This document shows, piece after piece, positions 13,997 to 21,475 of a stretch of DNA of 64,000 nucleotides. The translations under genes and the position numbers were made by a program. The DNA comes from Roseobacter sp. GAI101 (GTDB lineage: Bacteria; Pseudomonadota; Alphaproteobacteria; Rhodobacterales; Rhodobacteraceae): positions 2,239,049 to 2,303,048 of the forward strand of contig NZ_DS999213.1 in assembly GCF_000156335.1 (NCBI RefSeq), read 5' to 3'. The first letter of the stretch is position 1, and each line of letters starts with the position of its first letter. The notes beneath the pieces were generated by a model, which saw only the letters and a program-made list of their open reading frames with translations, was not told where the DNA came from and did no database searches.

Positions 13997-14031
13997 AAGA
14001 ACTCCTTGCCTTAAGGGGCCATATCTGTTTC

Positions 14032-14046
14032 TTACTAAATTAGTAA
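14032..14046. promoter_or_regulatory. Second IscR-like palindrome next to the iron-binding-protein gene
   Basis: TTACTAAATTAGTAA is palindromic apart from its centre and has the same architecture (nACTAAATTAGTn) as the box at 13984. It lies 27 bases before the start codon, where a bound repressor would block transcription. Confidence 0.55.
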
Positions 14047-14073
14047 GTAATACAAATCACATGGACATTTATT

Positions 14074-15085
14074 ATGACCCTGAAAAAATCCGCTCTCGCT
14101 GCCGTGCTTATGGCCTCAGCTGCCCTGCCCGCTTTCGCCGAAGGCCAGCTGAACATATATTCGTCGCGCCACTACGACACGGATGAAAAGCTGTATTCCG
14201 ACTTTACCGATCAAACCGGAATCACCATCAACCGGATCGAAGGCAAAGCCGACGAATTGCTGGCCCGCATGAAGGCGGAAGGCGCGAATTCGCCCGCAGA
14301 TATTCTGGTTACCGTCGACACAAGCCGCCTGAGCCGGGCCCAGAACATGGCCTGCTGCATCCGTGGACAGCGACATCTTGAGGAACGCATCCCCGCCAAC
14401 TGCAAGACAGCGAAAACGAATGGTTCGGGTTCTCCCAGCGGTCGCGGATCATTTCTACGCCAAGGACACCGTCGACACGCCGCCGATGACCTATCTTGAT
14501 CTGGCCGCCCCTGCCTACAAAGGCAAGGTGTGCATCCGGTCGTCCTCGAACGAATACAACCAGACCCTGCTGGCCGCGATGGTCACGCATTACGGTGAAG
14601 AAAAAGCCACCGCTTGGGCGCAAGGCGTTGTCGACAACATGGCCCGCGCGCCGCAAGGTGGTGATACCGACCAGCTGCGCGGTCTGGTGTCCGGCGAATG
14701 TGAAATCGCCGTGTCGAACACCTATTACTTTGCCCGCGCCCTGCGCACGGACGTGGACGGCGTCAGTGCCGAAATCGACAAGATCGGCTGGATCTTCCCG
14801 GATCAGGAAGACACCGGCGCGCATATGAACCTGTCCGGTGCAGGCGTCGCGGCCAATGCGCCCAACCGCGACCACGCTGTGAAATTCCTTGAATATCTGT
14901 CGTCGGACAGCGCACAGGTCTATTTCTCGACCGGGAACGACGAATTTCCCGCCGTCAAAGGCGTCGAACTGGCTGAATCAGTCGCGAAGCTGGGTGAATT
15001 CAAGGCAGACGAAGTGAACCTGTCGGAAGTGGCCGAAAACATCCCGACTGCACAGAAAATCTTTGACGCGGTTGGCTGGGAATAA
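14074..15085 (+). pseudogene. fbpA: Iron(III) ABC transporter substrate-binding protein, reading frame disrupted
   Basis: This periplasmic ferric-iron-binding protein (FbpA/FutA type, about 340 residues when intact) delivers Fe3+ to an inner-membrane permease. The signal peptide ends PAFA before EGQLNIYSSRHYD. The C-terminal half, with KVCIRSSSNEYNQTLLA and SGECEIAVSNTYYFARAL, is well conserved. Between about 14349 and 14456 the frame shifts. Adding one base at each of five places (near 14350, 14363, 14381, 14400 and 14453) restores a standard family sequence without other changes. The site losses are all in short base runs, so this may be a sequencing artefact rather than real decay. Two IscR-like boxes precede it. 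Confidence 0.85.
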
Positions 15086-15117: not shown

Positions 15118-15157
15118 AGACCGTATCGGAAACGCTTCGATACGGTCTATTCTTTTC
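15118..15157 (+). terminator. Intrinsic terminator after the iron-binding-protein gene
   Basis: AGACCGTATCG (15118-15128) pairs perfectly with CGATACGGTCT (15138-15148 region) around a 9-base loop, followed by ATTCTTTTC. Confidence 0.85.
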
Positions 15158-15196: not shown

Positions 15197-16096
15197 ATGA
15201 CCCAAGGCCCCCGCAAGACCGCCCGCGATTTCGACCCACGCCTGCTCGAGATTTTCGACGGCTATGTGCACGGCGCGATTTCGAAACGTGACTTCATGCG
15301 CCAAGCCAGCAAATTCGCCGCCGTCGGTGTAACAGGTGCGATGCTGCTGGAACAGCTTCAGCCAAACTATGCCCTGGCCCAGCAAGTCGCCCCCGATGAT
15401 CCCGACATCGAAACCGCCACCATCGAATATGACAGCCCGGACGGCCATGGCACCATCAAGGGCCTGATGGCCAAGCCGGCAGGTGCCACCGGCCCCTTGC
15501 CCGCCGTTCTGGTGATCCACGAGAACCGTGGCCTGAACCCCTATATCGAAGACGTGGTGCGCCGCTGTGCCAAAGCGGGATACCTTGCCCTTGGTCCCGA
15601 CGGACTGACGCCGCTTGGCGGCTATCCCGGCACCGACGAAGAGGGCCGAGAAATGCAGCGTTCCCTGGACGGGGTCAAGCTGATGGCGGATTTCTTTGCC
15701 GCCTTTGAATTTCTGCGCGACCATGACGACACCACCGGCAAGGTCGGCGCTGTCGGCTTTTGCTATGGCGGTGGCGTGTGCAATGCGCTGGCGGTGGCCT
15801 ACCCGGATCTGGCGGCCTCGGTCCCGTTCTACGGTCGCCAGCCGGATGCCGCAGATGTGGCTGCGATCCAGGCCCCGCTGATGATCCACTATGCAGGGCT
15901 GGACGAACGGATCAACGCAGGCTGGGACGCCTATTCAGAAGCGCTGCGGGCCAATCAAAAAGAGTTCAGCGTGCATTTTTATCCGGATGTGAACCACGGT
16001 TTTCACAACGATACCACACCCCGGTATGACGCCGAAGCTGCCGCATTGGCATGGGACCGCACCCTGGCGCATTTCGAAGAACATCTGCGCGGGTGA
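15197..16096 (+). CDS. Exported dienelactone hydrolase family protein
   Basis: This is a 299-residue alpha/beta hydrolase. The catalytic residues fit the dienelactone hydrolase pattern: Glu109 in IHENRG, the nucleophile Cys189 in GFCYGGG, Asp236 in GLDERIN and His267 in NHGFHND. The N-terminal ~65 residues carry a hydrophobic stretch ([13 protein letters not shown]) after [12 protein letters not shown] associate this with the subfamily of carboxymethylenebutenolidases that has a Tat-like leader. True substrate unknown. It lies between the iron-binding-protein gene and the convergent permease gene but has its own upstream terminator, so a link to iron is not shown. Confidence 0.9.
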
Positions 16097-16113: not shown

Positions 16114-17784
16114 CTAGCGCTGCCGTCCCACCTGCCGACAGATCAGAATGACAGGCAGCAACCCCAGTGCAACGATCACCAGACTGGGTACGGCAGCCCC
16201 GTCCAGTCTTTCATCGCTGGCCAGACGGTATGCCTGCACCGCAAGGGTATCATAGTTGAAAGGCCGCATGATCAAGGTCGCGGGAAGTTCCTTCATCACA
16301 TCGACAAAAACGATCAGCAGCGCCGTCAAAAGGCTGGGCGACAAGATCGGCAAATGCACCCGGCGCAGGGTGCCAACCGGCGTTTCGCCCAAGGACCGGG
16401 CTGCCGAATCCATATTGGCGTGCACCATCGCCTGACCGCCCTCGTAGGCCCCAAGCGCCGCCGCGAGGAAACGTACCATATAGGCTGCGACCAGCAGCCA
16501 GATCGACCCCGTTACCAGCAACCCGGTCGAGATGTCGAAGGTACTGCGCATCCATGCGTCCAGCGCATTGTCAAAGGCTGCGAACGGCACCAGCAGCCCC
16601 ACCGCGATCACTCCGCCCGGCACCGCATAGCCAAGCCGCGCCACATAGGCGGCAGCATTCGACAGCGTTCCCGGCCGCAGCCGCTGAAAGAAACCGACAC
16701 AAACCGCCGCCGTCACCGTCAACGCCGCAGCGATCCCCGCAAGCATGGCTGAATTGCGGATAAAGCCAAGATAGCGCGGGCTGAGCAGATCCTGTTCGGA
16801 CCCGATGCCCATGGAAAACAGGATCACGACGGGCAGCACGGCCCCCAACAGCACCGGCAGGCCGCAGGCGACCAGCGCCGCAGCCGCGCGCCAGCCGGTC
16901 AATTGCAGCGGCGGCATGGCGACAGCACGGCGCGAGGGGTCATGGTATTTCGCCTTGCCGCGCTGGACCCGTTCAAGCATGGCCAGCAACAGCGCAAAGC
17001 TGAGCAGGCACAGCGCCAGCTGCGCCGCACCCGCACGGTCGAACAGGGAAAACCAGCTGGTGTAGATGCCTGTCGCAAAGGTCTGGACCCCGAAATATGC
17101 GACAGTACCAAAATCGGCGATCGTCTCCATCACGGCAAGCAGCACGCCCCCTGCGATGGCCGGACGTGCAAGCGGCAAGCTGACCTTGTAGAACGCCACC
17201 CACGCGCTGCTGCCCAAGGCACGCGCGGCCAGGAATGTCGTCGCCGACTGCTGCAGGAACGCGGCACGGGCCAGAAGATAAACATACGGATACAGCACGA
17301 GGATCAGCATCAGGGCGGCCCCGCCCAGCGACCTGATCTCAGGGAACCAATAGTCACGCGGGCCCCATCCCGTCATATCGCGCAAGGTCGCCTGCACAAT
17401 GCCCGGATGATCAAGGACATGGGTATAGGCGTAGGCCAGCACGTAGGCGGGAAAGGCCAGCGGCAGGACCAGCGCGATTTCGAGGATTTTTGCCCCCGGA
17501 AAGCGGGTCATCGTCACCAGCCACGCCGCCCCGACCCCCAGGGCAAACGTGCCCACTGCCACAAAAACCACCAGCAGCAGCGTTGTGCCGGCATAGCCCA
17601 GCAAAACGGTTTCTATCAGATGGCGCACCGTGTCTGTGCCGCCCACAAGGGCCGCCAGCAGCACCGCCAGCATCGGCAAGGCGCAAGCCCCTGCAATGGC
17701 GACGGCAGCCGCAGCCAGCAGGCGCAGCCCGTCACGGGGCCCCTTGACGTCAATTCGGGATGGATTTGTCTGGCGCGAGGTCAT
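16114..17784 (-). CDS. fbpB: Iron(III) ABC transporter permease, two fused membrane domains
   Basis: This is a 556-residue inner-membrane permease with two tandem binding-protein-dependent transport domains, each about 250 residues. It is the FbpB/CysT-W-like arrangement of ferric-iron importers. About twelve hydrophobic helices are visible, with EAA-type loops near residues 210 (RALGSSAWVAFYKVSLP) and 480 (SLGETPVGTLRRVHLP). I start at the ATG at 17782-17784 (MTSRQTNPS). The longer frame would have to translate through the IscR-like box at 17797-17809. It presumably partners the binding protein at 14074. No ATPase gene is present in the window. Confidence 0.92.
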   Translation of the reverse strand: MTSRQTNPSRIDVKGPRDGLRLLAAAAVAIAGACALPMLAVLLAALVGGTDTVRHLIETVLLGYAGTTLLLVVFVAVGTFALGVGAAWLVTMTRFPGAKILEIALVLPLAFPAYVLAYAYTHVLDHPGIVQATLRDMTGWGPRDYWFPEIRSLGGAALMLILVLYPYVYLLARAAFLQQSATTFLAARALGSSAWVAFYKVSLPLARPAIAGGVLLAVMETIADFGTVAYFGVQTFATGIYTSWFSLFDRAGAAQLALCLLSFALLLAMLERVQRGKAKYHDPSRRAVAMPPLQLTGWRAAAALVACGLPVLLGAVLPVVILFSMGIGSEQDLLSPRYLGFIRNSAMLAGIAAALTVTAAVCVGFFQRLRPGTLSNAAAYVARLGYAVPGGVIAVGLLVPFAAFDNALDAWMRSTFDISTGLLVTGSIWLLVAAYMVRFLAAALGAYEGGQAMVHANMDSAARSLGETPVGTLRRVHLPILSPSLLTALLIVFVDVMKELPATLIMRPFNYDTLAVQAYRLASDERLDGAAVPSLVIVALGLLPVILICRQVGRQR

Positions 17785-17796
17785 TTGTTTGGTTTC

Positions 17797-17809
17797 GACT
17801 ATTTTAGTC
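17797..17809. promoter_or_regulatory. IscR-like (Iron-Rhodo) box upstream of the iron permease
   Basis: GACTATTTTAGTC is an exact match to the type-1 IscR core GACTRWWWYAGTC, 13 bases upstream of the permease start. Its core is shared with the box at 13984, upstream of the binding-protein gene. Confidence 0.7.
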
Positions 17810-17864
17810 GGAAATACCAGCGGGGTGCGCAAAATTATCGCTGCATCTGCTGCGACGTCGTGCC

Positions 17865-20097: not shown

Positions 20098-21384
20098 TTA
20101 GCAGCCTGGCGTGATACCGGATTCAGCAGCAAATGCGGCTGCGTCTTCGGTAACCAACGGGCCAAGGATGTCCTGGTCAGACTGCACATAGTCGGTGATC
20201 AGGCTCCAGCTGTCGGCAGCTGCGTCCCACTGGGACACGGCCACAAAGCCGTTACCGCCATGGTTTTCACAGGATACCTTGAATTCCGGACCAAAGTTCG
20301 GCAGGCCAAGATCGGCCATTTTGGCCTCTGTGATCTCAAGCGCTTCCATACCGTCACGCATTTGCGCAGGCGTCAAAGTGGTCGTGTTGTGCATGCCTTG
20401 CGCTGTTTTCGCAGCTTCGGCCGCCAACATCGCGGCATAAAGACCACGGTTGTACAACGCCGTACCGATCTGGTCGCCTGCACCCGCAGCTTTGCCCGCA
20501 TCGACGACAAACTTCTGGATGTCGTCAAACACCGGGAAATCATCGCCCACGTTGTGGAACGTCAGTGCCTTGTAGCCGTTGGCCGCATCGCCCGCAGGAC
20601 GTACGTCGTTCTCAGAACCGGACCACCAGATGCCGATGAACTGATCCATCGGGTAACGGATGTTCGCCGCTTCCTGAATGGCAACCTGGTTCATGACGCC
20701 CCAACCGTACATGATAACATTGTCCGGCTTTTCACGACGGATTTGGAGCCACTGGGACTTCTGCTCCTGACCGGGGTGGTCGATGGGCAGCAGGCTCAGT
20801 TCAAAACCGTGCTTCTTGCTCAGCTCTTCCAGCGTGCGGATCGGTTCCTTGCCGTAGGCAGAGTTGTGATAGACCAGCGCGATCTTCTTGCCCTCAAGGC
20901 TGCCACCGTTCACGTCCAGCAGGTGCTTGATCGCGACCGATGCGCCATCCCAGTAGTTCGCAGGATAGTTGAAGATGTTCTTGAACACGGAACCGTCTTT
21001 GGCAGAGGTCCGGCCATAACCCATCGAGTGGACAGGGATTCCGTCGGCAGTCGCTTTGGGAATCAGCTGGTAGGTAATGCCCGTGGAAAGCGGTTGATAA
21101 ACCAAAGCGCCTTCGCCCTTGGTGCTTTCGTAGCATTCCACACCTTTTTCGGTGTTATAGCCGGTTTCGCATTCGATCATGCGGATCGCTTCGCCACCGA
21201 TGCCGCCATCGCGTTCATTCAGCAGCGTGAAGTAATCTGCATAGCCATCCGCAAACGGAATGCCGTTGGCGGCGTAGGGGCCGGTGCGGTAGCTTAGTGA
21301 TGGAAAGACAAGCTCTGCCATCGCGGGGCCGGCAGCCAGTGTAACGCCAAGCGCCACTGTGGTCAGTTTCAGTTTCATGTTCAT
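20098..21384 (-). CDS. HAAT-family ABC transporter substrate-binding protein
   Basis: This is a 428-residue periplasmic binding protein (Peripla_BP_6, LivK-like). A clear signal peptide ends GPAMA before ELVFPSLSYRTG. Two Rossmann-like lobes follow, and the protein ends in ITPGC with a Cys that may pair with one near residue 60 or 70. It is longer than amino-acid-binding LivJ/K (about 370), which fits subfamilies that bind aromatic or fatty acids or amides. The ligand cannot be read from sequence. GGGAGG sits 8 bases before the ATG at 21382. It is central to the operon with two permeases, two ATPases and two CoA ligases. Confidence 0.93.
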   Translation of the reverse strand: MNMKLKLTTVALGVTLAAGPAMAELVFPSLSYRTGPYAANGIPFADGYADYFTLLNERDGGIGGEAIRMIECETGYNTEKGVECYESTKGEGALVYQPLSTGITYQLIPKATADGIPVHSMGYGRTSAKDGSVFKNIFNYPANYWDGASVAIKHLLDVNGGSLEGKKIALVYHNSAYGKEPIRTLEELSKKHGFELSLLPIDHPGQEQKSQWLQIRREKPDNVIMYGWGVMNQVAIQEAANIRYPMDQFIGIWWSGSENDVRPAGDAANGYKALTFHNVGDDFPVFDDIQKFVVDAGKAAGAGDQIGTALYNRGLYAAMLAAEAAKTAQGMHNTTTLTPAQMRDGMEALEITEAKMADLGLPNFGPEFKVSCENHGGNGFVAVSQWDAAADSWSLITDYVQSDQDILGPLVTEDAAAFAAESGITPGC

Positions 21385-21475
21385 CGGTGTTTCCTCCCTG
21401 GATATGTCCGATAGTGCCGGGTTTGCCCGGTCGTCTTCTTCGGCGTGGGTCTCCTCCCCCGCCATGTGCCGTCCC

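Follow-up and report, generated by a model that had tools for sequence, protein, structure and literature searches.

In Roseobacter sp. GAI101, the published sequence of the gene for a ferric-iron-binding protein lacks five single bases within a short stretch. We hold it very probable that a local base-calling or consensus error of that sequence is the best explanation for the five missing bases. The gene itself is ordinary, and its break is most likely not a real feature. The features used below are listed with positions counted from the start of the window, the whole stretch of 64,000 nucleotides that was analysed.

14021 to 14057, forward strand: imperfect, AT-rich palindrome within the leader; intact, and a candidate operator/promoter region (repeat search, 78% complementary).
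14074 to 14348, forward strand: intact first part of the gene with a signal-peptide-like start and a His-Tyr pair (open reading frame, alignment, ligand comparison).
14349 to 14456, forward strand: damaged stretch with five one-base gaps in which the frame is lost (alignments to relatives).
14457 to 15085, forward strand: intact second part of the gene with three tyrosine positions (alignment; SBP_bac_6 at 1.9e-14; within the open reading frame 14363-15085).
15118 to 15148, forward strand: likely terminator of the gene, a perfect 11-base inverted repeat with a 9-base loop, then a T-rich stretch (repeat search, sequence).
16114 to 17832, reverse strand: convergent ABC-transporter permease, intact (93% identical to the closest relative over 572/572 residues).

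Judged by homology, the gene is predicted to encode a FutA/IdiA-type (class IV) periplasmic ferric-iron-binding protein; as printed, it reads as a broken and not as a proven working member. The closest relative by this gene is G036, a genome of the same genus, and its intact homologue (L028:4593-5618) matches the PDB entries 2pt1 (E 5.4e-102) and 6g7n (E 3.2e-97). Both matches span residues 27/28-342 of its 342, which is the whole mature length. 6g7n is Tery_3377 of Trichodesmium, whose second-lobe ligands are three tyrosines, and in the related FutA2, a loop of the first lobe contributes a histidine and a tyrosine as further ligands, as given in the passages of PMC6254336 used here. Via the alignments with 2pt1 and 6g7n, the ligand codons in the window fall at 14170-14175 (His-Tyr), 14555-14557, and 14723-14728 (tyrosines). 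All five predicted ligand positions are intact and lie outside the damaged stretch. In Pfam, the second part of the gene belongs to SBP_bac_6 (PF13343, 1.9e-14) and the first part as printed to no family, while NCBIfam gave nothing above the cut-off for the binding-protein reading frames of the window. A single open frame for the whole protein is absent from the window as printed. The gene has a real match in 59 of the 61 other genomes of the genus, and 19 of these gene loci were aligned. In the genome of the strain itself (4.52 Mb, 9 contigs), the wide Pfam family PF13343 has six other members, and no second copy of the gene was found at E 1e-5.

When 14064-15085 is aligned with the 19 loci of the same genus, the row of the window has five one-base gaps, after 14348, 14358, 14376, 14399, and 14452, and a base is present at each of these sites in 19/19 loci. 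Gaps were counted only in columns filled in at least 10 of the 19 rows; by this count, the window has no coding gap beyond the five, and it holds no coding base that is missing from most of the 19 relatives. When 80 genome loci are aligned and only columns with a base in more than 40 of them are counted, the identical five gaps are again the only ones of the window, and all five sites carry a base in 80/80. These 80 are the best 80 of 84 loci, and the set partly overlaps the 19. The initial annotation had reported five one-base losses in ~105 bp that destroy the frame, near 14350, 14363, 14381, 14400, and 14453, with no other change needed to restore it. Both alignments bear this out, and the positions it named are within a few bases of the aligned gaps. 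The gaps themselves can be placed only to within a few bases; the second, for example, lies after 14358 in the alignment and near 14366 by blastn.

A frame without stops runs through the gene in 80/80 related loci (best 80 of 84). The disruption shared by close relatives that had been named as evidence against an error did not turn up, either in the 19 aligned loci or in the best 80 of 84 genome loci. In the window, the reading frame 14074-14499 (141 aa) is open but garbled past ~14348, and the reading frame 14363-15085 (240 aa) gives the proper protein only from ~14453. It is scarcely credible that programmed frameshifting bridges the breaks or that the gene acts as two pieces. Both parts are indeed open frames of some length, but five shifts would have to occur in 105 bases, an arrangement not found in the relatives examined. 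By eye, the first reading frame has a signal-peptide-like start and a stop inside the protein, and the second starts without a signal-peptide-like stretch, which argues against two separate pieces.

The substitutions in the damaged stretch speak to selection. Codons were counted in the register of the relatives, with the five gapped codons left out. Against the closest relative, the ratio of silent to changing codons is 16:2 in 14345-14456, compared with 18:3 in the upstream and 63:10 in the downstream flank. Against five relatives, 2, 4, 4, 4, and 7 changing codons are found in the stretch, and ten pairs among the intact relatives differ there by 2 to 9. An excess of amino-acid-changing substitutions, as expected under relaxed selection, was therefore not found in the damaged stretch, neither against the closest relative nor against the five. 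Because the differences in the stretch are mostly silent, like those in the flanks, the gene was under selection until very recently or still is. At the DNA level, differences from the closest relative amount to 29/256 and 74/626 in the flanks (11-12%) and to 23/127 (18%) in 14330-14456, so substitution is slightly raised in the stretch (23/127 vs 103/882, p 0.045). The initial description of the flanks as perfectly conserved thus holds roughly for the protein but not for the DNA. Two substitutions just 5' of the first gap, at 14337 and 14341, appeared private to the strain and suggestive with 19 relatives; with 80, only 14341 is near-private (shared by 1/80), and we dropped them as a signal.

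Old decay would mean that iron uptake by this system was no longer needed and that the gene has become a pseudogene. Several breaks in the frame would suit such a history, and absence of the gene may occur in the genus, as 2 of the 61 other genomes have no real match (none in G054, and 26 bases in G053, which is 64%-complete). We consider it very improbable nonetheless. Differences are mostly silent within and outside the stretch, including those between the gaps, which therefore do not look like old decay. The rest of the gene is gap-free; the permease, the leader, and the likely terminator are whole; and none of the relatives examined (19 loci; best 80 of 84) has the break.

The core of the leader palindrome, CTGTTTCTTAC, is common to 11/16 aligned relatives, and 14021-14057 is a candidate regulator site that may respond to iron. 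The permease at 16114-17832 is likely the membrane partner of the iron-binding protein; a permease match at E 1e-20 is present in 51/80 loci (best 80 of 84). A dienelactone-hydrolase-like gene of the YghX family (15197-16096; NF041440, 490 bits) separates the iron-binding-protein gene from the convergent permease. It has no match in contig C5 of the closest relative, and among the best 80 of 84 loci, only L034 carries it (93% identical).

To estimate the frame-break background, three blocks were compared, with 800 kb from the strain's own genome and 715 kb from the closest relative. Because diverged stretches made a raw tally of DNA indels between the two too noisy, a protein-frame test was used instead; it covers genes matched at 60% or more, and compensated shifts would escape it. 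The test matched 368 genes of the relative (127,228 codons). It gave 8 frame breaks for the own genome and 15 for the relative, which served as a control; several of the reported breaks touch no more than the initial or final portion of a frame. With fewer reported breaks than the relative (8 vs 15 of 368), the own genome is not error-rich in general. Six of the 8 breaks, the iron-binding-protein gene included, were inspected at the DNA level; the other two overlap on opposite strands at 3089410-3092627. Among the six, only the iron-binding-protein gene has a series of single losses of the same sign, and at the other five, the indels stand alone or are compensated. What comes closest to a cluster lies at 3095450-3096450, where the gene has one extra base, a compensated pair, and, right at its start, two single losses with a spacing of 3 bases.

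If the breaks were independent events, the expected number of occurrences of five within 105 bases would be 1e-14 to 1.5e-8 (assuming 3 to 50 events per 382 kb). The low background and the improbability of so many same-sign losses as independent events therefore point to one local event. Such an event could be biological: the losses may be real and very recent, left by a single episode of mutation, such as the copying of a patch by a base-skipping error-prone polymerase, that switched the gene off in the strain or in a culture stock. As a single event would leave them, all five are single-base losses in one stretch of 105 bases, with no damage elsewhere in the gene; no N-run adjoins the spot, and the coding sequence that was compared looks otherwise fairly accurate. 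On the other hand, the known rates of error-prone copying are much below ~5 errors per 105 bases, the losses come without accompanying insertions, and any rise in substitutions is slight at most. All of the 80 loci have an open frame, and no second copy of the gene was found in the genome at E 1e-5. Overall, we regard real recent losses as unlikely. That a single real episode produced five deletions in 105 bases and almost nothing else, the footprint of a base-skipping polymerase patch, and struck the only FutA-type protein found, is distinctly unlikely.

Some further observations from the same comparisons are reported for their own sake. Outside the window, another gene of the own genome is broken relative to the closest relative by the loss of one base in a G run at C9:2403152; this loss may be real or another error. 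Within the window, an apparent one-base loss at ~21400 was rejected as a further case, as it falls in the leader of a Peripla_BP_6 gene (20098-21465, reverse strand) whose likely, signal-peptide-like start lies downstream; the listed start of this reading frame is probably ~27 codons too long. A dispersed repeat of ~33 bases, e.g., L151:7409-7442 in the own genome, has 23 matches in G036. Allowing up to 4 mismatches, 9 copies are present in the 800 kb of the own genome including the window, and 6 of them are in the window.

With several sequencing methods, false losses are expected to be confined to runs of identical bases. In the relatives, the lost letter lies within such a run in 19, 17, 9, 14, and 2 of 19 for gaps one to five. 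The claim that every lost base lies in a short run is accordingly clear for the first two gaps and likely for the fourth, but it is not clear for the third and fifth. Runs account for ~40% of the bases in the relatives' version of the stretch; the chance that 5/5 losses fall in runs is ~1-2%, which would be mild evidence even if all five did so. No hairpin able to disturb sequencing was found, as the stretch folds worse than its shuffles (z +2.2; 200/200 shuffles fold at least as well).

The 40 sampled stretches (800 kb) of the own genome contain seven N-runs of 61, 332, 34, 20, 30, 798, and 2500 bases, vs none in 36 sampled stretches of the closest relative. The run of 332 bases takes the place of ~466 bases in the relative, which is how a gap of estimated size would behave, and the genome looks like a scaffolded draft. 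The 2500-base run is likely masking; it ends exactly at the start of the window and is, at ~14 kb, the nearest sampled run to the damaged spot. There are no N-runs inside the window, and the spot adjoins none. An effect of contig ends was considered as the cause and rejected: at the N-run flanks that could be compared, single losses formed no clear same-sign series, although some diverged flanks have gaps of both signs. In this comparison, two of the seven runs had no match in the block of the relative, and one was matched on one side only.

A local sequence error would arise as follows. At a short spot, the consensus would have been built on one or very few poor reads, and base-calling of such reads would have dropped single bases in a draft that is otherwise fairly accurate but apparently gapped. 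Spots covered by a single read would be expectable in a scaffolded draft. We infer low local read support at this spot and an intact gene in the living strain, which would then have an ordinary working gene for a FutA/IdiA-type periplasmic ferric-iron-binding protein. An error is favored because the losses are local and unseen in relatives, show no sign of relaxed selection, and lie in intact surroundings, and because N-runs occur in the sample. Counted against it are the distance of the spot from N-runs, the lack of a clear same-sign series at the compared N-run flanks, the losses that are not clearly confined to runs, the few breaks elsewhere, and the slightly raised substitution. Taking these together, we share with high confidence the initial preference for an error over decay: all 80 loci are open, the substitutions are mostly silent, the leader and the permease are conserved, the anomaly is local, and the sampled sequence has N-runs.

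If the missing bases are an error, the matter is one of annotation only; the strain should not be listed as lacking this iron-binding protein, and a flag should be set at the spot. If they were real, they would be an unusual footprint of mutation, and a well-conserved gene for iron uptake would have been lost. The initial conclusion that real losses would end iron uptake by this system is reasonable, given that no second copy was found at E 1e-5, although the six other PF13343 proteins are present.

Compared with the FutA/IdiA class as represented by 2pt1 and Tery_3377, and as far as the ligand passages of PMC6254336 describe it, the gene has the His-Tyr pair and the three tyrosines at the ligand places of the class. 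The only difference found is in the frame, which in the window breaks between the two parts. The break can be set beside the errors treated by the tool Kastor, which, according to the portion of PMC12007338 consulted, deals with gene-fragmenting indel errors of draft and long-read assemblies. As in those errors, false one-base deletions would split a conserved gene and be recognised against relatives. Unlike them, again going by that portion, the deletions here are five in 105 bases of an otherwise fairly clean sample and not scattered genome-wide, and the present sequence need not be a long-read assembly.
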